From Candidatus Methylomirabilis lanthanidiphila (GTDB lineage: Bacteria; Methylomirabilota; Methylomirabilia; Methylomirabilales; Methylomirabilaceae): a DNA stretch of 64,000 nucleotides. Shown here one piece after another: positions 16,997 through 31,089 of the stretch. The position numbers were made by a program, and so were the translations under genes. The notes beneath the pieces were generated by a model. It did no database searches. It worked only from the letters and a program-made list of their open reading frames with translations, and had not been told where the DNA came from. The stretch covers positions 1 through 64,000 of the forward strand of contig CABIKM010000022.1 in the NCBI GenBank assembly GCA_902196205.1, read 5' to 3'. Positions within the stretch are counted from its first letter, which is position 1; every line of letters begins with the position of its first letter.

Positions 16997-17611
16997 TCAT
17001 CTTATGTTTCCGGGACACGTTATATCCCCAATATTTAGATTCGATTCCGGGCTATGCCTTCCCACGCACTCCTTCGCGCGGTACACCGCCCCAACGACGA
17101 CACCGTAGACCAGGTGAGCCATCAAACTCATCCCCGCCATGAGCAATGCACTGGGCGCGATCGCCGCATCCGGCATCACCGCCGCACACGGGTTCGTGGC
17201 GATTATCGGGGCACATGGATTCACGGCGACTACCGCGCCGCATGGATTCATGGCCGGTGTAACGGCGGACCCAGCTAAAAGGGAATGCAGCATCGCCATG
17301 GCCGGCGCCAGCGCTACCATCGCGAAGATCCAGGGAAGGATAGAGTACAGGGCGCCTTTGAGGGGTCGTGGGCCCGGAAGCCACGTGGCGAACGCCACGG
17401 CATAGATGATCGCGAGAACGACCCCATTGAACAGGTGAACCAGGCTTCCTGTGAGGTAGGTCGGCAGGCCGATGGGCAGCGCTTGCCCCAGGGCCCCGAT
17501 CAGGTCCATCTTGGGGAGTCCCATAAGCGGGGCCATATACATCAGGGCCGTCATCGCAAGCGTGCCCAGGATCCCCGCCATTACCGCTGAACCGATGCTG
17601 AACCGTTTCAT
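16997..17611 (-). CDS. Integral membrane protein with three NPC repeats
   Basis: Four to five hydrophobic segments (about residues 10-30, 50-75, 90-112, 155-178) resemble the DUF6789/YagU-like group of small membrane proteins. Between the third and fourth lies an insert with NPC at residues 122-124, 131-133 and 140-142, a nine-residue period encoded by a 27-base repeat. The regularly spaced cysteines could bind metal or crosslink. The gene converges on the SRPBCC gene with a six-base gap. No function is known to me. Confidence 0.65.
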   Translation of the reverse strand: MKRFSIGSAVMAGILGTLAMTALMYMAPLMGLPKMDLIGALGQALPIGLPTYLTGSLVHLFNGVVLAIIYAVAFATWLPGPRPLKGALYSILPWIFAMVALAPAMAMLHSLLAGSAVTPAMNPCGAVVAVNPCAPIIATNPCAAVMPDAAIAPSALLMAGMSLMAHLVYGVVVGAVYRAKECVGRHSPESNLNIGDITCPGNIR

Positions 17612-17933: not shown

Positions 17934-17962
17934 TTGACACAGGACTTCACGTGGTGTACTCT
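17934..17962 (+). promoter_or_regulatory. Candidate promoter of the mercury operon
   Basis: TTGACA at 17934-17939 and TACTCT at 17957-17962 are separated by 17 bases. The -35 is perfect and the -10 moderate. It is the only good promoter in the gap before the ArsR-type gene, and the dyad at 17962-17983 begins at its -10. Confidence 0.55.
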
Positions 17963-17983
17963 ATATACGCTGATTCGTATATA
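17962..17983 (+). promoter_or_regulatory. Candidate ArsR-type operator
   Basis: A perfect inverted repeat, TATATACG-N6-CGTATATA, overlaps the -10/start region of the candidate promoter, 30 bases before the regulator's GTG. ArsR-family repressors bind AT-rich dyads of this size at this place, so autoregulation of the operon is the natural reading. Confidence 0.65.
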
Positions 17984-18012: not shown

Positions 18013-18393
18013 GTGAGTGCGCTGCGGAAGTTGGTGCCTGAGCGAGAATTTGCCGTGCTGGAACTGTCGGCGAAGTTTTTTCGGGGCTTGGGGGACCCGA
18101 CTCGACTGAAGATCCTGGACATCCTCCTTGACGGTGACAAAAGCGTCTCCGACCTCGTTCGTTTACTTGGCATCCAACAAGGTCGCGTGTCCAACCACCT
18201 CGCCTGCCTCAAATGGTGTGGCTATGTCACGACCACCACCAAGGGGCGGTACACGGTGTACTGCATCGCTGACAAGCGGGTGAAGCAAATCCTTCGGCTT
18301 TCGCGAGAGATGGTCGCCAAGAACGCCGAGCATCTCTGGGCCTGTACGCGCATCGCGGAAACCCAGAAACCACTGGCCACCACGGGTAAGTAA
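18013..18393 (+). CDS. ArsR-family transcriptional regulator of the mercury operon
   Basis: A winged helix-turn-helix protein: FRGLGDPTRLKILDILLDG, recognition helix QQGRVSNHLACLKWCGYV, and wing TTKGRYTVYCIAD. The cysteines C in HLACLKWCG and the later YC and AC are candidate metal ligands. I choose GTG at 18013 because AGGAGG precedes it by five bases. An upstream ATG at 17983 lies in the operator dyad. The gene ends two bases before merB, so it is the first gene of the operon, taking the place of the usual MerR. Confidence 0.88.
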   Translation: MSALRKLVPEREFAVLELSAKFFRGLGDPTRLKILDILLDGDKSVSDLVRLLGIQQGRVSNHLACLKWCGYVTTTTKGRYTVYCIADKRVKQILRLSREMVAKNAEHLWACTRIAETQKPLATTGK

Positions 18394-18395
18394 CA

Positions 18396-19013
18396 ATGTG
18401 GGGACAATTAACTGCAAATGAACGCCGTGCCCGGAAGGCGCTTCTGGATCTGATACTCACGACTGGTCGGGGTCCCAGTCTGAAGGCGCTCGCCTCACGC
18501 CTTGAGGTGTCCGAATCCGAGGCGGCCGAGCTTCTTTCTGCCCTTGAGCGGAAAGGATGCCTGGTTCGAGGCCAGCGTTCCAACATGATCAAGGCCGCCT
18601 ATCCGCTTTCGACCCGCCCAACTCAGCATTGCGTGGCACTGAATGGCACGGACCAGCAGTGCTACGCCCTGTGCGCCATTGACGCGCTGGGTGTCGCTCC
18701 GCTATTCGGCGTACCCGTCACGGTGAGCACAGCTTGCCAACAGTGTGGAAGGCCCATCAGTATCGTTCTGCGCCCTGGGGGGATCGTTTCTTGTGACCCA
18801 TCGACCACGGCGGTCTATGACAGCCTTCCCCAGCCGCTGACCAGGCGGTCGGTCGAGCTCAATCTCGCCAAGGTCCACTGACCATCAACCAACTTCTTCT
18901 GTACTGAAGAAGATGCGTATGAGTGGGGCAGGAAATATGGAAAGCTGGAGGGCAATGTCCTTTCAATGAGGGAGGCCTGGTTGAGGGCTCTTGAGATCTT
19001 TGGGCAATTCTAA
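18396..19013 (+). CDS. merB: Organomercurial lyase MerB with selenocysteine at the catalytic position (UGA at 18879-18881)
   Basis: MerB cleaves the carbon-mercury bond of organomercurials and releases Hg(II). The N-terminal third is a winged-helix-like domain. The core has AAYPLSTRPTQH, Cys93 and Asp96 in YALCAIDALGV (matching C96/D99 of the R831b enzyme) and VSTACQQCGRPI. At codon 162 the frame meets TGA and then continues for 43 codons (NFFCTEEDAYEW..., GKLEGNVLSMREAW) with the typical MerB C-terminus to TAA at 19011. Counting back from the conserved FF, the TGA aligns with catalytic Cys159. A seven-base-pair hairpin follows at SECIS distance. With Sec the protein has 205 residues, close to the usual 212. 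The alternative, a nonsense mutation, would remove an essential residue. Confidence 0.85.
18893..18912 (+). promoter_or_regulatory. Candidate SECIS hairpin for merB Sec162
   Basis: CTTCTTC and GAAGAAG pair perfectly (seven base pairs) around the loop TGTACT. The loop begins 19 bases after the TGA and has G at its second position, as described for bacterial SECIS elements. Confidence 0.7.
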
Positions 19014-19109
19014 GACAGGGGAGAGAGGAAGTGATGCCGGAGCCCTCTATCTGGGCCTGAAATGGCTTGGAAAGGAGAAGGTAAATGAAACCTAAGGAGG
19101 TGCTCTAAT

Positions 19110-19387
19110 ATGAAGTGTTGCGAGACCAACAAGGGGAAGGTCACCCAAGAAGAAAGGCGGACGAAGCTCTCGGGGTTGGCGGGGCTCGGCATTGTTGGGA
19201 CCATTCTGACCTGCGTGGCCTGCTTTACCCCGCTAGCGGTTACCCTGCTCGGGGTGATCGGGCTGGCGGATGGGCCGGGTATCTTGACTACGCGCTCTTC
19301 CCAGTCCTGGCCGTGTGTGTCGGGCTGGTGCTGCTCGGACTTGCCCGCCGCAGATCAGATGATGGCAAGCTGAAAGGAGAAGGCTGA
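19110..19387 (+). CDS. merF: Mercury transporter MerF-like, needs a -1 frameshift
   Basis: MerF is a small two-helix inner-membrane Hg(II) importer. A perfect AAGGAGG precedes ATG 19110. The first frame gives MKCCETNKGK, the helix with TCVACFTPLAVTLLGVIG and ADGPG. At about 19277 the meaningful reading moves back one base and continues YLDYALFPVLAVCVGLVLL to TGA 19385. This is the complete MerF plan, including the TC/AC cysteines of helix 1. The break lies in a GGGCCGGG run, so one missing G in the assembly, a true mutation or ribosomal slippage are all possible. The stop overlaps the next start (TGATG). Confidence 0.75.
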
Positions 19388-19623
19388 TGGCCAAAGAGCT
19401 CATCGTGTACAGTCAACCGGGGTGAGGGGCATGCCACCAGGAGAAAGAGTTTCTTTCTCAAAAGGCAGTTGCGTTCATCGATAAGAACATCCAGGAGGAC
19501 CACACGGCGCTGGAGGAGCTTCTAAAACTCGGCTACCGGGCCACACCCGTGACGGTGATCGACGGCGAAGTCGTTGTCGGTTTCGACCGCGGGAAGCTCG
19601 AACGGCTGCTCGGGTTGAGTTAA
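19387..19623 (+). CDS. Glutaredoxin-like selenoprotein, UxxC (UGA at 19423-19425)
   Basis: The 78-residue product opens with [21 protein letters not shown], where U is an in-frame TGA at codon 13. The glutaredoxin/NrdH redox motif CxxC is thus UxxC with Cys16. The cis-proline motif TPVTVI and [13 protein letters not shown] complete the thioredoxin fold. The frame is clean up to TAA 19621. The start overlaps the merF stop, so translation is coupled. A hairpin of SECIS geometry follows. A selenol at this site would have very high affinity for Hg(II), or could serve in reduction of Se-Hg-S adducts. The cellular role is inferred from the operon. Confidence 0.85.
19441..19459 (+). promoter_or_regulatory. 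Candidate SECIS hairpin for glutaredoxin Sec13
   Basis: GAGAAAG and CTTTCTC form seven base pairs around the loop AGTTT. The loop begins 23 bases after the TGA and has G at its second position. Confidence 0.65.
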
Positions 19624-19652
19624 GGCCATTGCGGTACGGTCTCGGAGGTGGA

Positions 19653-19937
19653 ATGGTCAAGGTCCATTGCAGTGGGTGCGGGCAGGAGATCGAGCTACCG
19701 ATGGAGACGCGCTCAGGCGACATCATAGCCTGCCCCAACTGAGCGGGTCTCTCGCTCCGGGTGGGCGAGGAGGAGGGCAACTGGTCAGCCGTGGTCCTCA
19801 AGACCGCAAGCTGCGCCGTGGGTGACGAGGTCGTCATCCTCCCAGATGACGTCAAACCCGGTAACCTCGTTGAGTGCCATGGTATCCAGCAACGGGTCAC
19901 CTATGAATACGGCGCATACGCGCTCGAGAAGGTGTGA
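19653..19937 (+). CDS. Zinc-ribbon-like selenoprotein, CPNU (UGA at 19740-19742)
   Basis: GGAGGTGGA directly precedes ATG 19653. The product begins MVKVHCSGCGQEIELP and continues to IIACPN-U-AGLSLRV, with TGA at codon 30 where a CPNC knuckle would be expected (CxxC...CxxU). A second part has KTASCAVGDEVVILPDD, NLVECHG and YEYGAYALEKV. Total length is 94 residues with no other stop. Replacing one of four metal ligands by Sec is unusual and suggests a mercury chaperone or sensor and not a structural zinc site. The exact function is unknown to me. The following gene begins 12 bases later. Confidence 0.75.
19751..19769 (+). promoter_or_regulatory. Candidate SECIS hairpin for zinc-ribbon Sec30
   Basis: CTCGCTC pairs with GGGCGAG (seven pairs, one G-U) around the loop CGGGT. 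The loop starts 16 bases after the TGA and carries G at its second position. Confidence 0.6.
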
Positions 19938-19949
19938 GGGGCCAAGTAC

Positions 19950-20381
19950 ATGAGTGTATCAGATGTGAAGCCCGGATTCTTGGGTGTCGTGGCGGCAGGC
20001 GTTTCGTCTTTGTGCTGCCTCCTGCCGCTCATGGTCATTGTTTTAGGGCTCGGTAGCGGCGCATTCATGATGACCACTATGCAGTACCGGGCGATCTTCA
20101 TCCCGGCGGGGATCGTCGGGGTGGCCATCGGTTGGCTCCTATATCTTCGCGAGCGCAAACGCTGCAGTTCCCTTGCTTGCCGGGTGGTGGGTGGAACACT
20201 GAACCTCTCCCTCCTCCTGCTCGCGACGGTCCTGGTTGCTGCGGCGGTCGCCCTCGACCAATTCCCCAACGTCACAGCCGACCTGCTGATGCGCGCCACA
20301 TCCGGCACCTCGGATACGGCGCCGGCGTCTGCTTCCACAGCCGATCACTCGGCCATGGGACACGAAGGAGACATGAAATGA
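19950..20381 (+). CDS. merT: MerT-like mercuric ion transporter
   Basis: Three hydrophobic helices, an adjacent cysteine pair in the first (GVSSLCCLLPLMVIVLGLGSG) and a second cysteine pair in the cytoplasmic loop (RKRCSSLACR) reproduce the MerT plan, in which Hg(II) passes from helix-1 cysteines to the loop cysteines. The C-terminus is extended and ends in a His/Met-rich tail (DHSAMGHEGDMK) that may bind metal. Cysteines are standard here, with no UGA. The end overlaps the start of the MerP-like gene by four bases. Confidence 0.78.
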   Translation: MSVSDVKPGFLGVVAAGVSSLCCLLPLMVIVLGLGSGAFMMTTMQYRAIFIPAGIVGVAIGWLLYLRERKRCSSLACRVVGGTLNLSLLLLATVLVAAAVALDQFPNVTADLLMRATSGTSDTAPASASTADHSAMGHEGDMK

Positions 20382-20686
20382 GGGCAAGGCTTCAGTGGGA
20401 TCGCCGCACCTTCCTTACATGGGGAATAGGCGCATCGCTCCTCCTGGCTTTCAGGCAAACCGCCGCCTCACGCACCGCTGTTGCTTTTCTGCAGATTGAC
20501 GGCATGACGTGAGGAACCTGACCCCTTGTGGTCAAGAAGGCCCTGGAGGGGCTGACGGCCGTCAAGAGCGCCGAGGTGAGTTTCAAGGAGAAACTCGCCC
20601 GCGTAACCTACGAGATGGGCGTCGTGACGATCGAGCAGATGATCGAGGCCGTGAAGGGTGTGGGGTTTCGCGCCACGCCCCAATGA
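20378..20686 (+). CDS. merP: MerP-like periplasmic heavy-metal-binding diselenide protein, UxxU (UGA at 20510-20512 and 20519-20521)
   Basis: The 102-residue product begins with a twin-arginine-like signal (WDRRTFLTW, hydrophobic ASLLLAF, cleavage near TAAS) followed by one HMA domain: AFLQIDGMT-U-GT-U-PLVVKKALEGL, VKSAEVSFKEKLARVTYE, TIEQMIEAVKGVGF. Both cysteines of the canonical GMTCxxC site are TGA (codons 45 and 48). Both hydrophobic and glycine landmarks of HMA domains are intact up to the TGA stop at 20684. Two successive small hairpins follow. Export of a Sec protein by the Tat route would fit cofactor-like handling, but it could also be a Sec-pathway signal. Confidence 0.82.
20525..20536 (+). 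promoter_or_regulatory. Candidate SECIS hairpin for merP Sec45
   Basis: CTTG and CAAG pair around TGGT, with the loop starting 17 bases after the first TGA and G at the second position. A competing pairing is TGACC with GGTCA (20519-20534). The stem is short, so support is weaker than for the other genes. Confidence 0.45.
20539..20553 (+). promoter_or_regulatory. Candidate SECIS hairpin for merP Sec48
   Basis: GGCCC and GGGCT pair around TGGAG, with the loop starting 23 bases after the second TGA and G at the second position. Confidence 0.45.
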
Positions 20687-20699
20687 AAAGGAGGAAATA

Positions 20700-21209
20700 A
20701 TGGCTCCGACAGCAAAGCTTCCGCTCCTGCCGACCACCGTGGTCGGCTCGTATTCGGTCCCGGACTGGTATCCGGTGTTGCAAGAGGGGGTGCAACGCGG
20801 CGCGTTGGCTCCCTCGGCCTTTGGTGATGCGAAGGAGGTCGCCGCCCTGGGCGCCATCAAGGATCAAGAGACGGCTGACATCGACCTCATCAGCGACGGG
20901 GAGCTGTTCCGTCGCGACAACAACCGCTTCGGCCCTCCCAATGCGATGATTAACTACTTCTCGGCGAGAATCCCGGGTTTTTCGTCTGAGCTTCGGGACC
21001 GAAGCGGCATTACGCCCCTAGACCCCTCGGCGTCGCTACCGGCGCCAGTGGCGACAGGGCCGCTCCGCCCAGCGCCGCTGGGTCTGGTCGAGGAGCTGCG
21101 ATTCCTCCGCCGGTACAGCTTCGGCCCGGTCAAGATCGCCATGACCGAGCCCCACATGTTTGCCAGGATCGTGTGGGATGAGCAGTACGGCAGCCGGCGG
21201 GTAAACTGA
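20700..21209 (+). pseudogene. MetE-like methyltransferase, 5' fragment
   Basis: AAAGGAGG precedes ATG 20700. The product matches the N-terminal half of short cobalamin-independent methionine synthase II-like proteins: LLPTTVVGSYSVPDWYPVL, DLISDGELFRRDN and FGPVKIAMTEPHMFARIVWDEQYGSRR. Similarity ends at about 21195, where a decayed transaldolase fragment on the other strand begins, so only about 168 of an expected 370 residues remain. The gene follows merP by 13 bases and was probably the last gene of the operon before a deletion. The catalytic zinc-binding C-terminal part is missing. Confidence 0.7.
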
Positions 21210-23557: not shown

Positions 23558-24976
23558 TTACGCAAAGCGCATGAGGAACTGGAGGATCCCCTTGAGCGGC
23601 CCCTTGAAGAGCTTTTCCCGATAGTAAAGATCGGCGGCCCGGCGGACGCCTTCAGCCAGCGTGGGATACACATGGATGGTCTGAGAGAGCGCACCGACTG
23701 GGAGCCCCTTCCGCATCGCAAGGACCACCTCCTGGATGAGATCACCGGCCTGCGGACCCATGATGTGAGCCCCCACGATCTTCCCCTTCGGCGTGCACAC
23801 CAGCTTCGTCAGGCCCACCGCCTCCCCATCGCAGAGCGCCCGATCCAAATCTCCGAAGCTGTGCCGATAGACCTTCACGTGTCCGAACTGTTCTCTGGCG
23901 TCGACCTCGGTTAACCCGACCCTGGCCACTTCGGGATCGGTGAAAGTGCACCAGGGGACCACTCGGTAGTTCGCCTTGCTTGTCAACGGGAACAACGCAT
24001 TGCGGACGACCAGACGCGCCTGGTATTCGGCCACGTGGGTGAAGAGGAGCTTCCCCGTGACGTCGCCACTAGCCCAGATGTTACGAGCCGTGGTCCGCAA
24101 GGTATCGTCCACGACAACCCCCTTGCCGTCATACCTCACCCCTGCCGCCTCGAGATTCAACCCCTCCACATTTGGCCGCCTGCCGGTCGCCAGGAAGATT
24201 TCCTCGGCCCGGAACGTCTTCGCTGTACCGGTGCACTCCCCGTGGACGATCTTCTCGGCCCCGTCCTTCTCAATGCGGAATGCCTTGGTGCATGTGTGGA
24301 TGTCGATCCCTTCGGCCCGAAAGATGGCCTCCAGAGACTGAGCGATCTCCTGGTCCTCCCGGGGCAGAATCTGCCCGACCACCTCCAACACGGTGACCCG
24401 GACGCCGAAGCGGGCGAAGAGTTGAGCGAACTCGAGCCCGATGGGCCCTCCCCCTAAGATCACGACCGATCGAGGGAGACGGGAAAGCGCTAAGGCGCTC
24501 ACGTGATCAAGGAAGCCAGTTTGCTCCAAGCCCTCGATCGGGGGAACAGCCGTCCTGGAGCCGGTGGCGATGACGACCTTCTTCACCTTGATCCGCTGCG
24601 CCCCAACCTGTAGCTCCGTCGGGGAGAGGAAGCTCGCCTGGTTGGAAAAGAGGGTGACGCCTAGCCCCCTGAACCGCTCAGGGGAGTCATGCTTCCCCAC
24701 CTGCTGCTGAACCAGTCGCATCCGGTCCATGACCTTTGCAAAGTCAAAAGAGACCTCGGGCGTATTCAGACCAAAATCGGCCGCGCGGCGTAAGAGATGC
24801 AGGACCTTCGCAGAGCGGATGAGGGCCTTGGACGGCACGCAGCCGGTGTAGAGGCACTCTCCCCCAAGACGGTCCCGCTCGATTAGGGCCACTTTCGCTC
24901 CAAGGGAGGCAGCGCCGGCAGAGGTTACAAGCCCGGCCGTGCCACCGCCTATCACGGCGAGATCAAAGGTGTCCAT
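23558..24976 (-). CDS. FAD-dependent disulfide oxidoreductase, mercuric-reductase-like, of the arsenosugar cluster
   Basis: The FAD motif is LAVIGGGTAGLVTSAGAASLG, the redox disulfide is Cys41/Cys46 in GGECLYTGCVPSKA, the NAD(P) motif is VVILGGGPIGLEFAQL, and the second FAD motif is IWASGDVTG. The C-terminal base is in TIHVYPTLAEGV. It lacks both the N-terminal HMA domain and the C-terminal vicinal cysteines of true MerA, so mercuric reduction is doubtful. Similar proteins are last in arsenosugar gene sets. It begins four bases after the glycosyltransferase gene. Confidence 0.85.
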   Translation of the reverse strand: MDTFDLAVIGGGTAGLVTSAGAASLGAKVALIERDRLGGECLYTGCVPSKALIRSAKVLHLLRRAADFGLNTPEVSFDFAKVMDRMRLVQQQVGKHDSPERFRGLGVTLFSNQASFLSPTELQVGAQRIKVKKVVIATGSRTAVPPIEGLEQTGFLDHVSALALSRLPRSVVILGGGPIGLEFAQLFARFGVRVTVLEVVGQILPREDQEIAQSLEAIFRAEGIDIHTCTKAFRIEKDGAEKIVHGECTGTAKTFRAEEIFLATGRRPNVEGLNLEAAGVRYDGKGVVVDDTLRTTARNIWASGDVTGKLLFTHVAEYQARLVVRNALFPLTSKANYRVVPWCTFTDPEVARVGLTEVDAREQFGHVKVYRHSFGDLDRALCDGEAVGLTKLVCTPKGKIVGAHIMGPQAGDLIQEVVLAMRKGLPVGALSQTIHVYPTLAEGVRRAADLYYREKLFKGPLKGILQFLMRFA

Positions 24977-28024: not shown

Positions 28025-28987
28025 TTATGAGATTACCACCCCACTGCAACTGCTGCCGGTCCCGGCGGTGCAGGCATAGCAGTGGTTCCCGACCAAGATC
28101 TGGCGCCCCTCGACCACATTGGCAGCAAGCTCCCAGATTTTCAGCGGCCTTCCTTTTTGATCTCTCAGCGGCATCTCGAGCATCTGGTTGAAGTCACAAT
28201 CGTACACCGACCCTTCCCATCCCACACTCAACAGATTTTTGCACATCACGTAGTCTAAGGTCGCCGCGTTGAAAGTGGACTCCAGGAGGTCCATGTAGCG
28301 ATCGTACTCACCGCGGCGCTTGAGGAACTTTTCAAAGCGTGTGATCGGTGCGTTGGTGAGGCAGTACAGGCGGGTAAACACAATGCCGTGTTTCTCCTGA
28401 AGGACCCGTTTGTACTCTTGTTCGAGTGTGTCCTGTGGCGGCGGCAGGTACGCGCCGAATGGATTGTAAACCAAGTGAAGCGTCAATCCTGTGTCCGGCA
28501 CGCCATAGCCCAACTGGTTCAATATCTGAAGGGCCCGGATGCTCAGCTCAAACGTCCCGTCTCCTCGCTGACGATCCACATTCTCCTCCAGATAGCAGGG
28601 AAGCGAACAGATCAGCTCGACCCGATTCTCTCTAAAGAATTCCGGCAGGTAGTCCTTCCCCGGCTCAAAGACCACGGTGAGGTTGCACCGATCGATGACA
28701 TGACGCTTCAGGCGAACGCACGACTTCACGAGATACTCAAAGTTCGGATTCAGCTCCGGGGCTCCACCCGTGATATCTACCGTGGGGATCGCCGAGCCTT
28801 CTAAGAACCGGAGTACGGCCTGCACCGTTTCGCGTCCCATGATCTCCTTGCGTCCAGGCCCGGCCTCAACATGACAGTGGAGGCAAGCCTGGTTGCAATA
28901 TCTGCCCATGTTCACCTGGAGCACGTCGATCTTACGCTTGCGAAAACCGTCTCCGTTCTGCTTCATCCTTTGAGCAAAGGGACGCAT
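28025..28987 (-). CDS. arsS: Arsenosugar biosynthesis radical SAM protein ArsS
   Basis: A radical SAM enzyme with CNQACLHCH as the cluster-binding motif, DITGGAPELNPNFEYLV, LTLHLVYNPFGAYLPP, CDFNQML and the C-terminal HCYACTAGTGSSCSG. It is proposed to couple a deoxyadenosyl group to methylated arsenic. Some homologues carry Sec in the last motif, but this one has Cys. The start at ATG 28987 leaves 16 bases after the arsM-like gene and removes a non-homologous leader. Confidence 0.9.
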   Translation of the reverse strand: MRPFAQRMKQNGDGFRKRKIDVLQVNMGRYCNQACLHCHVEAGPGRKEIMGRETVQAVLRFLEGSAIPTVDITGGAPELNPNFEYLVKSCVRLKRHVIDRCNLTVVFEPGKDYLPEFFRENRVELICSLPCYLEENVDRQRGDGTFELSIRALQILNQLGYGVPDTGLTLHLVYNPFGAYLPPPQDTLEQEYKRVLQEKHGIVFTRLYCLTNAPITRFEKFLKRRGEYDRYMDLLESTFNAATLDYVMCKNLLSVGWEGSVYDCDFNQMLEMPLRDQKGRPLKIWELAANVVEGRQILVGNHCYACTAGTGSSCSGVVIS

Positions 28988-29003
28988 GGGATTCCCCTTC
29001 ACC

Positions 29004-30212
29004 TTACGGGCAGCATGCGGTTCCAGGTCCGCAGAGATTAGGTGAGGTCTCCGTAGCCTTGTAGTCCATTCCCTTGGTCTCGCGGGGATGGCGGCGCTCA
29101 GTACGCGCGCAATCAAACACGCCTGCCTCCTCCAGCGGGATCTCATCCCTGGGCGGGACGAGCATGAACTGATCCTGATACGGCGCTTTGGAATAGAGCT
29201 GGTAGGTCTTGTCGCAGACCGCGACCCGCGCCCCACGCGGCAGGACGTGGTTGTCGTCGTCCACCACCTGTTTCCACGGGCCTCGATAGATCACCGCCTG
29301 GTTTCGCTCGATGCAGGGGCCTTCCTTCCCCTTATAGGCCGTCATCGTGATCGAGCGAAACTCGATCCCTTCGATCGTCTGATACGGCTCTGTTCTCATC
29401 TCCTCGATATGTATCCCGTAGAACTTGGCCTCTTCAAATGCATGAAGCAATTCCTCCTCTTGAAAGGCCCCGGAGACGCAGCCGCTCCACAGCTCCGGAT
29501 CGCGTTGCAGGTGGGCCGGTACCGGTTCATCGCTTACGATGTCAGAGATGGCGACCCTTCCGCCTCGCTTGAGGACACGATACATCTCCGAAAATAGCTC
29601 CCGTTTCTCCTCAGGTCGGACCAGATTCAGGACGCAGTTGGAGACGATCACATCGATCGAGTCATCCGCGATCAAGGGTCGCTCATGCGAGATTCTCTCC
29701 TCGAACTCGCGCAGCCTAAAGAGATCGAAGACGGACCGGATAGGGTGACGCGCCAGATATTGATCCAGAAGATCCAAGTTCATCTTGAGATTCTGAATCT
29801 TGCCGCGGCGAAACTCCACATTGTGATAGCCGAGCCGCTTGCCTATAGGGTCCTGATACTTCCGGGCCAGGGCAAGCATCTCTTCATTGAAGTCGACGCC
29901 GATGACCTTGCCGTTCGGCCCGACGATCTGGCAGATAATGTAACAGGCCTTCCCGCCCCCGGAACCGAGATCGAGGACCGTCTCCCCTTTCCTCACGTAC
30001 CGTGACGGGTCTCCACACCCGTAGTCCTTTTTGACGATCTCTTCGGGGATCACCTCCAGGAGGGATCGGTCGTAGCTGACAGGGACACATAATCCTACCT
30101 CGACCTCTCGGGCGGCCCTCTCATAGCGCTCCAGCACCGCCTCTTCAATAGTTGCCCTTCGAGCATGACCGTTGTTCGTTCCGTTATTAACTACGTGCCT
30201 CTCGTCGCCCAT
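29004..30212 (-). CDS. arsM: Arsenite methyltransferase-like protein of the arsenosugar cluster
   Basis: A SAM-dependent methyltransferase with motif I VLDLGSGGGKACYIICQIVG, VIGVDFNEEML, VIVSNCVLNLV and VAISDIVSDEPVP. Cysteines in YGCGDPS, SNCVLN and SGCVSGAF match the arsenic-binding cysteines of ArsM. The C-terminal 100 residues form an extension ending in CGPGTACCP that may bind metal. The ATG at 30212 has GAGGAG upstream and agrees with the family N-terminus. Confidence 0.87.
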   Translation of the reverse strand: MGDERHVVNNGTNNGHARRATIEEAVLERYERAAREVEVGLCVPVSYDRSLLEVIPEEIVKKDYGCGDPSRYVRKGETVLDLGSGGGKACYIICQIVGPNGKVIGVDFNEEMLALARKYQDPIGKRLGYHNVEFRRGKIQNLKMNLDLLDQYLARHPIRSVFDLFRLREFEERISHERPLIADDSIDVIVSNCVLNLVRPEEKRELFSEMYRVLKRGGRVAISDIVSDEPVPAHLQRDPELWSGCVSGAFQEEELLHAFEEAKFYGIHIEEMRTEPYQTIEGIEFRSITMTAYKGKEGPCIERNQAVIYRGPWKQVVDDDNHVLPRGARVAVCDKTYQLYSKAPYQDQFMLVPPRDEIPLEEAGVFDCARTERRHPRETKGMDYKATETSPNLCGPGTACCP

Positions 30213-30405
30213 AAGCGTGTGTCTCCTCACGTGCACCTTCCGTAAAACACTTTTGACGTTCTCCCCCTCAGCCTCCAGGTGATATTCAGAAGATGGGATG
30301 CGAGGTCCCCATCTCCAACCGATGATTAGATGACCATAGCAATGAAAAGGATTCGCGTCGAGAAGGAATGCATGGAGCGAACATCTGCGATTCTTCCATG
30401 TCTCC

Positions 30406-31089
30406 TCAGTGATGAGCAGCGAAGCGCCGTCTGAAGAAGGGGACGAGGAGGGGGAGGATGAGTGTCCCCGCAAAGAGGGAGGTGAGGATGAAGAAGGCCG
30501 CCCGAAGCGATCTCCCCGCCCGGTGGCCCAGGTAACTGTAAAAGAGGGTAGCGGGAAGCTGACCAAGACCAGTCATGCTCCAGAAGCCCCAGAATCCCAT
30601 CATGGTCAATCCCGCCCCGTAGCTCACAAGATCAAAGGAGATCCAGGGAAGCAGACGAGCCACAAGGATGGTGCGCTTGCCATAGTTGGCAAAGAAGGCG
30701 TCGGTCCAGGTGAGCGCAGAAGGGCGCACCAGTTTTTCCATCAAGCGGCGACCGAAGAGCCGGCTGAGGCCGAAACAGAGGGCTGCCCCCACCATGGCGC
30801 TTCCCCAGGACAGCACCACCCCCCAGAGGGGGCCGAAGAGGAGGCCGTTGGTGAGGGTAAGAACAAAAGCGGGGAGGGGGGCGATGAGGGACTGGAGGAC
30901 CATGAGCAGGAACGAGATGACTGGCGCCCACACCCCGAAGGACAGGAGAAACGCCTTGAGCGCCTCAACATCCCCCTGGCTAAGGAGGCGAACCGCTTGA
31001 TAAAGAAATACTCGGCCGGAGGGAAGGAGTAGATACAGCCCCCAGGCGAAGCTCGCTCCTACAAGAAGTATGAAAAGTGTTTTTCTCAG
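30406..31089 (-). CDS. TVP38/TMEM64 membrane protein, likely CTG start
   Basis: The VTT core is LQSLIAPLPAFVLTLTNGLL, FGPLWGVVLSWGSAMVG and RLLPWISFDLVSYGAGLTMM. The usual N-terminal helix is encoded upstream of the first GTG (30933): LRKTLFILLVGASFAWGLYL, then VEALKAFLLSFGVWAPV. That stretch has no ATG, GTG or TTG, but a CTG at 31089 follows AGGAG by six bases and a TAG stop lies three codons earlier. Either CTG is used or the normal start was mutated. It is the first gene of the arsenosugar set. Confidence 0.75.
   Translation of the reverse strand: MRKTLFILLVGASFAWGLYLLLPSGRVFLYQAVRLLSQGDVEALKAFLLSFGVWAPVISFLLMVLQSLIAPLPAFVLTLTNGLLFGPLWGVVLSWGSAMVGAALCFGLSRLFGRRLMEKLVRPSALTWTDAFFANYGKRTILVARLLPWISFDLVSYGAGLTMMGFWGFWSMTGLGQLPATLFYSYLGHRAGRSLRAAFFILTSLFAGTLILPLLVPFFRRRFAAHH

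Follow-up and report, generated by a model that had tools for sequence, protein, structure and literature searches.

Mercury damage to selenoenzymes is usually explained by the affinity of selenium for this metal. A gene cluster of Candidatus Methylomirabilis lanthanidiphila raises the question of what in-frame TGA codons are doing in genes of the mercury-resistance type, and which metal the products of these genes would handle. The cluster lies in a 64,000-nucleotide stretch of contig CABIKM010000022.1 (assembly GCA_902196205.1), referred to below as the window. As read from the sequence, it is a mercury-handling cluster of the Methylomirabilis group, in which selenocysteine (Sec) replaces the mercury-gripping Cys in four of the six working proteins. 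With a probability of about 0.78, we regard it as an ArsR-regulated operon for organomercury, in which Sec has taken the place of metal-contacting Cys in four proteins and the metal would end in export or bound to selenium, without Hg(0) being formed.

Positions 18013-20686 code, on the forward strand, for ArsR, MerB, MerF, a glutaredoxin, a LysW-like zinc ribbon, a MerT-like protein and a MerP-like protein, and a recheck of the open reading frames left the gene list and coordinates of the first-pass annotation unchanged. The first gene (18013-18393, GTG start) encodes an ArsR/SmtB-family metalloregulator (PF01022, 58 bits; NF033788, 77 bits, above the cut-off of 55). Upstream, at 17962-17983, lies an inverted repeat composed of TATATACG and CGTATATA with 6 nucleotides between them, probably the ArsR operator; similar boxes (ATACG...CGTAT) precede ArsR in relatives. 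The merF-like gene (19110-19387) is intact in three related loci (L041, L042 and L044) and is frameshifted in this assembly by a one-base deletion near 19264-19272. Behind the last mer-like gene, 20700-21209 (forward strand) holds a truncated gene resembling cobalamin-independent methionine synthase (metE), whose membership in the operon is uncertain and which is found at full length directly 3' of merP in L069 and L070. Given the merF frameshift and the truncated metE-like gene, this copy of the operon may have undergone partial decay or been assembled wrongly.

The putative lyase MerB (18396-19013) has a well-supported role in mercury or organomercury handling, because its match to PF03243 exceeds the Pfam cut-off (96.6 bits against 27), the positions of C96, D99 and C159 are kept, and its predicted fold is that of MerB. 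In the alignment to MerB from the PDB, C93, D96 and Sec162 fall on C96, D99 and C159, and the best fold matches are MerB and MerB2; the narrow models NF009710 and NF033555 score below their cut-offs. For the MerT-, MerF- and MerP-like proteins, a mercury role is more weakly supported, since their scores lie under the specific curated cut-offs. The MerT-like membrane protein (19950-20381), for instance, reaches 27.5 bits with PF02411 (cut-off 32.9) and 34 bits with NF010314 (cut-off 150). The MerP-like protein (20378-20686) has an N-terminal signal-like segment and an HMA domain with the motif GMT-Sec-x-x-Sec (PF00403, 52 bits, cut-off 24.8). Its score with NF041115, a model of UxxU (seleno)proteins, is 86.4 bits for the full protein and 73.3 in the six-frame search, against a cut-off of 95. 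According to their translations, both membrane proteins, MerT-like (with its Cys pair) and MerF-like, retain Cys. Thus, of the selenol-based mercury pathway proposed in the first-pass annotation, Sec insertion and the MerB role stand, whereas the part assigned to the MerT-, MerF- and MerP-like proteins is weakened by their sub-threshold scores.

No match to MerA above the curated cut-off was obtained in this genome, and only 2 genomes of the same order and class contain one. This absence, as well as the merF frameshift, had earlier been overlooked. The best MerA-like protein, a flavoprotein encoded at 23558-24976, was examined as a candidate for the absent reductase and rejected: it scores 410 bits with TIGR02053 (cut-off 454), its best family is a generic FAD oxidoreductase, and it has no C-terminal Cys pair. 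With no MerA above the cut-off in this genome or in almost any relative, the route is unlikely to finish in Hg(0).

The scores of the MerT-, MerF- and MerP-like proteins also leave room for a different soft metal, or an organometal, as the substrate. Under this alternative, the selenoproteins are real, and the MerB-fold lyase with its HMA- and MerT-like carriers serves mainly arsenic, tin, lead, copper or selenium species. It would fit the ArsR-type regulator, the sub-threshold scores, the missing MerA and the arsenic methylation genes that the window contains at a distance of about 8 kb, and the nearest precedent, the Sec-assisted organometallic (SAO) system, is described in PMC13188914 only as organometallic. 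We nevertheless consider it unlikely, as the lyase matches MerB above the cut-off, keeps the positions of C96, D99 and C159 and folds like MerB or MerB2, and as the company of MerB with MerF-, MerT- and MerP-like genes is the mer combination.

The second matter is the nature of the TGA codons. Five of them occur in frame across merB, the glutaredoxin gene, the zinc ribbon gene and merP, and homologue alignments place all five on columns of functional Cys, as had been claimed; likewise, each of the four genes reaches its natural end without an internal TAA or TAG. In merB, the codon at 18879-18881 (residue 162) corresponds to Cys159, and its column holds U in 25 homologues and C in 12. The glutaredoxin codon (19423-19425, Sec13) takes the first position of CxxC (U58/C12/G1), and that of the zinc ribbon (19740-19742, Sec30) takes the fourth ligand position of the first ribbon (U26/C12). 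The merP pair, starting at 20510 and 20519 (20510-20521), covers both Cys of GMTCxxC (U17/C10 and U20/C9). Some homologues have Sec at Cys9 of the zinc ribbon as well (U15/C23). Among 37 MerB, 75 glutaredoxin, 38 zinc ribbon and 29 MerP homologues, 161 in-frame TGAs are confined to six alignment columns of the four protein families. Cys is the near-exclusive alternative there (78 of 80 other residues, the remaining two being one Gly and one Pro), and Cys/Sec exchange is seen at every site. Such clustering on Cys columns is far beyond chance in these alignments. The predicted Sec sites are therefore Cys159 of MerB, the first Cys of the glutaredoxin CxxC, a zinc-ligand position of the LysW-like ribbon and both Cys of the MerP motif GMTCxxC.

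In each group, the U-containing homologues share a conserved hairpin downstream of the TGA sites, and no consensus structure was found in the Cys homologues of glutaredoxin, MerB (12 sequences), MerP and ribbon Cys9. The merB hairpin (18894-18911) has 97% of cells paired in the consensus fold of 23 U-containing sequences. In the glutaredoxin gene (19441-19459; 57 sequences) this value is 99%, with an AU/CG/UA exchange at one pair, and in the zinc ribbon gene (19751-19769; 26 sequences) it is 96%, with a GC/CG swap at a pair that joins two third codon positions. As in bSECIS elements, the hairpins lie downstream of the UGA and carry G within the first two loop positions. For merP, 96% of cells are paired for the second UGA (20539-20553; 18 sequences), and the consensus for the first is weak. 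The two UGAs are 9 nt apart, and the loop lies about 22-25 nt past the second, so that the first has such an element only through the shared hairpin. In other words, hairpins of the kind described in the first-pass annotation are present, whereas its assignment of one to every UGA does not hold for merP, where a single well-supported hairpin seems to serve both.

The genome carries selA, selB, selD and selC, the last encoding tRNA-Sec with a UCA anticodon, as a search suggested earlier was meant to establish. SelD is itself a selenoprotein with a GUACKI motif, and every one of the 25 genomes in which the MerB gene contains a TGA, that of the window among them, has selA. Taken together, this machinery, the Cys/Sec exchange, the bSECIS-like hairpins with some compensatory pairs and purifying selection downstream of the UGAs (dN/dS well below 1) strongly support UGA-directed Sec insertion in the four proteins.

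The cluster is, moreover, not confined to this genome. Versions of it occur in relatives and in a few other bacterial groups, which indicates a genuine system rather than a misreading. Linkage of two or more of its Sec genes is seen in 42 locus entries, from about 36 distinct contigs, and one genome (G007) has a complete twin operon with all five Sec. In another (G013), a P-type ATPase, a MerR-like regulator and an ArsP-like permease adjoin the operon; next to the window's operon, no export genes of this type were found. The G013 contig measures 11,080 bp, with the operon spanning both ends, and no terminal overlap was found when it was checked for circularity. It is very improbable that the TGAs are ordinary stops, due to pseudogenes or sequencing errors. 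Such an origin would suit two defects seen here, the frameshifted merF and the shortened metE-like gene, but identical TGA positions, on Cys columns only, recur in many genomes from separate assemblies, and the downstream selection, the hairpins and the full Sec machinery also contradict it, so that this reading is rejected on comparative data. Least probable of all, and rejected on comparative grounds too, is a genome-wide reassignment of TGA to a common amino acid (e.g., Trp, Gly or Cys), which would explain four adjacent genes open across in-frame TGAs but conflicts with ordinary TGA stops in the zinc ribbon (19935), MerT-like (20379) and merP (20684) genes, with TGA columns that are those of Cys, not Trp or Gly, and with the presence of tRNA-Sec, SelA, SelB and SelD.

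Two of the selenoproteins lie outside the usual mercury set. The glutaredoxin (19387-19623; PF00462, 45 bits, cut-off 22.9) is YruB-like with a Sec-x-x-Cys site, and scores 72 bits with TIGR02196, below the cut-off of 88.55. Its nearest solved sequences are 7c10 and 7c12, which we take to be a selenoprotein glutaredoxin of Clostridium/Alkaliphilus. The tandem LysW-like zinc ribbon (19653-19937) just passes PF21344 (27.1 bits, cut-off 27) and falls short of NF041070 (47 bits, cut-off 75); its model has a pLDDT of 92 and matches LysW (3vpb_E) best in the PDB.

In the organomercury operon proposed here, the UxxU site of the MerP-like protein would act outside the membrane, binding Hg(II) or organomercury and handing it to MerT/MerF. 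MerB would cleave the C-Hg bond through Cys96, Asp99 and Sec159, and the Sec glutaredoxin and Sec zinc ribbon would receive or buffer Hg(II); alternatively, these two may keep the lyase and the carriers reduced. Since MerA is missing, the metal would most likely be exported, or else locked up as mercury-selenolate or HgSe, rather than reduced to Hg(0). That the proteins form a relay at all is something we only infer, as are its order and end point. More tentatively, selenol chemistry may replace MerA reduction altogether: methylmercury would be taken up by MerP(UxxU)/MerT/MerF and cleaved by Sec MerB, and the Sec glutaredoxin and ribbon would carry Hg(II) either towards export or into inert Hg-Se.

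The SAO system, with SaoL and other components, reportedly goes back to Haft and Gwadz 2023. According to PMC13188914, SAO is a six-selenoprotein operon with a MerB-like lyase, SaoL, and a presumed role in organometal handling. Both operons thus contain several selenoproteins, including a MerB-like lyase. The claim that an operon so rich in Sec had no precedent was too strong, as SAO with SaoL and, separately, a UxxU metal-binding protein had already been described. However, the MerB found here scores 78.7 bits where SaoL requires 140, no match to SaoB, SaoC, SaoP, SaoT or SaoX was found among the eight proteins scanned, and transport is MerT/MerF/MerP-like here and by an ABC system in SAO. 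Membership in SAO was rejected, as no SAO family matched above its cut-off.

Operons of the classical mer type, merRTP(F)A(B), likewise group MerB together with MerP-, MerT- and MerF-like genes. Unlike them, this operon has an ArsR-type regulator in place of MerR, no MerA, Sec at metal-binding or catalytic Cys, and an additional glutaredoxin and LysW-like ribbon. The UxxU proteins of NF041115 share the HMA/MerP-like domain with UxxU. In NF045683, a Sec-containing MerT/CopZ fusion whose cut-off the MerP-like protein misses by far, the two parts are joined, whereas here two genes encode them and MerT retains Cys. A Sec glutaredoxin (UxxC) with the same active site and fold is already listed among selenoproteins in PMC13188914; here its gene belongs to a mer-like operon and its neighbours are conserved. 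LysW/ArgW carriers have the zinc ribbon fold in common with the ribbon protein, which differs in its two tandem ribbons and Sec ligand position. Apart from an FmdB-family entry, PMC13188914 names no LysW or ribbon selenoprotein, and a literature search, with Haft 2023 and Haft 2025 outside its scope, gave no account of the gene set or of a LysW-like selenoprotein. Within the literature searched, the tandem LysW-like zinc ribbon appears to be an undescribed selenoprotein family.

The conserved operon appears to exploit the Se-Hg affinity for detoxification, and to do so at several steps. Its natural Cys and Sec versions, found in the same operon context, form a series for gauging the effect of Sec on mercury binding and C-Hg cleavage. 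Additionally, MerB in genomes without MerA bears on the methylmercury balance of groundwater and sediment. Conventional annotation ends these genes at UGA, and the pathway will therefore escape notice in most metagenome-assembled genomes.

The operon occupies positions 18013-20686 (+) of the window, where an ArsR-type regulator precedes genes for MerB, MerF, a glutaredoxin (Grx), a zinc ribbon, a MerT-like and a MerP-like protein, with tight spacing or overlaps. Pfam and NCBIfam assigned these products to ArsR, MerB, MerF (weakly), YruB-type glutaredoxin, LysW-like ribbon, MerT (weakly) and HMA/MerP, respectively. An inverted repeat, TATATACG-6-CGTATATA, lies upstream of ArsR, and similar ATACG...CGTAT boxes are seen in relatives. 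A membrane-protein-like ORF at 16997-17611 (-) contains a repeated NPC-containing stretch (AMNPCGAVVAVNPCAPIIATNPCAAV) and is without an NCBIfam match.

In-frame TGA codons occur on the plus strand in merB (18879), grx (19423), the ribbon gene (19740) and merP (20510 and 20519). As the first-pass annotation had claimed, these four genes remain open to their natural ends when TGA is translated as a residue, and TAA and TAG are absent from them. A general reassignment of TGA is very unlikely, since the ribbon, MerT-like and merP genes themselves end at TGA, which is therefore still a stop codon in this genome. Sec insertion in merB, grx, the ribbon gene and merP is instead predicted about as firmly as sequence allows (probability about 0.97).

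Cys and Sec replace each other across homologues. MerB was found in 39 genomes in a search of 148 relatives, with an internal TGA in many and none in others. The glutaredoxin query identified 70 loci in named genomes, whose taxon names, as deposited MAG labels, include Methylomirabilota, Rokubacteria, a Nitrospirae MAG, Deltaproteobacteria, Myxococcales, Acidobacteria, Elusimicrobia and others. In-frame TGA was confined to six columns of the alignments (37 MerB, 75 Grx, 38 ribbon and 29 MerP sequences): MerB C159 (25 Sec, 12 Cys), the first Grx Cys (58 Sec, 12 Cys, one Gly), ribbon Cys9 (15 Sec, 23 Cys) and Cys30 (26 Sec, 12 Cys), and the first (17 Sec, 10 Cys, one Pro) and second (20 Sec, 9 Cys) MerP Cys. 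Cys is the alternative at all six, bar that single Gly and Pro. The four proteins switch independently, because MerB is in Cys form beside Sec forms of Grx and ribbon at two relatives' loci (L045, L046), while a Rokubacteria locus (L054) combines a Cys ribbon with Sec MerB, Grx and MerP. Ribbon homologues at L042:5377-5655, L046:8-289 and others carry Sec at both Cys9 and Cys30 positions, more than the window's ribbon. In the comparisons made, dN/dS 3' of the UGAs was roughly 0.05-0.33.

The genome (3.05 Mb, 99.98% complete) encodes all the Sec machinery sought: selA (516 bits), selB (377 bits), a tRNA-Sec with a UCA anticodon, called by both Rfam and ARAGORN, and selD, itself a selenoprotein gene (motif GAGUACKI). 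Counting this genome, selA is present in 25 of 25 genomes with a TGA-bearing MerB; a selA match is absent in three incomplete relatives (G031, G032 and G033; 68-85% complete) with ribbon-gene TGAs.

Downstream hairpins point in the same direction. The best simple hairpin score was 18.3 after Sec sites versus 13.8 at Cys sites (Mann-Whitney p about 2e-17), and a G lay within the first two loop positions at 87% versus 53% of sites (p about 4e-9), p-values that overstate the support because the sequences are related. RNAalifold folded each Sec group into one hairpin; pairing covered 96-100% of cells in the groups for Grx, MerB, the two ribbon sites and MerP's second site. Among the Cys groups, those of Grx, MerB, MerP and ribbon Cys9 yielded no structure, and the Cys30 group gave a long fold unlike the Sec-group hairpin. 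The ribbon hairpin includes a GC-to-CG swap at a pair linking two third codon positions. The earlier proposal of a hairpin after every UGA needs amending only for merP, whose two UGAs seem to have one in common, a separate hairpin after the first being weakly supported.

The gene set is conserved. Named relatives with the operon include Candidatus Methylomirabilis oxygeniifera as well as further Candidatus Methylomirabilota MAGs. G007, which like G013 belongs to the window's genus, matches the window's seven genes in content and order (L041/L075), keeps all five Sec and has an unbroken merF. In the region of the glutaredoxin, 42 locus entries (about 36 distinct contigs, as six entries are duplicates) contain at least two Sec genes of the set, and about 19 of these contigs contain at least three; all four are present in the window, G007 and L083. 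Sec glutaredoxins of this family also occur without mer-like neighbours at several of the loci L084-L092, mostly from Deltaproteobacteria MAGs.

The window's merF is one G short in a short G run (19264-19272) compared with L041, L069 and L070; the resulting frameshift could be either genuine or an error of assembly. Directly 3' of merP lies a gene resembling cobalamin-independent methionine synthase (metE), truncated in the window (20700-21209) and full length in L069 (7538-8632) and L070 (1533-2657); a methyl-transfer enzyme adjoining MerB is curious. Arsenic methylation genes lie about 8 kb from the operon, at 28025-30566 (-), encoding an ArsS radical SAM protein (TIGR04167, 435 bits, Cys form) beside an ArsM-like methyltransferase.

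The first-pass view that such an operon lacked precedent has to be narrowed. A 2026 review (PMC13188914) lists Sec-containing versions of glutaredoxin, of a metal-binding protein with UxxU, of a putative mercuric transporter, of the MerB-like SaoL and of HgcA/HgcB. It also describes the six-selenoprotein SAO operon and the Tso operon, and notes 63 selenoprotein genes predicted in one Methylomirabilota MAG; Sec MerP was listed in a 2008 ocean survey (PMC2398784). In a comparison that covered these two papers and not the Haft primary papers, no description was found of the present operon or of a LysW-like selenoprotein.

The catalytic residues of MerB are C96, D99 and C159. In alignment with PDB MerB, these correspond to C93, D96 and Sec162 of the window's protein, whose AlphaFold model (pLDDT 89) is closest to the structures of MerB and MerB2. 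For the ribbon, modelled at pLDDT 92, LysW is the top structural match, and the sequence reads as a tandem of two ribbons, the second having lost Cys in the window's lineage and kept four in Rokubacteria. The operon is likely to handle organomercury.

No MerA exceeded the cut-off in the window's genome, and four of 148 relatives exceeded it, two of them in the same order or class. The nearest match, at 23558-24976 (-), fits a generic FAD oxidoreductase best and lacks a C-terminal Cys pair. On the G013 contig that bears the operon (L147, C31, 11,080 bp) lie genes for a heavy-metal P-type ATPase, an ArsP-like permease, a MerR-like regulator and a further UxxU HMA protein. The operon there is split over both contig ends (MerB right, MerF left), as if circular; no overlap was found between these ends. 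The missing MerA and these export-type neighbours would make export or sequestration the more likely fate of the mercury. A relay among the proteins and such a MerA-free end point are together a hypothesis, rated somewhat less likely than not.
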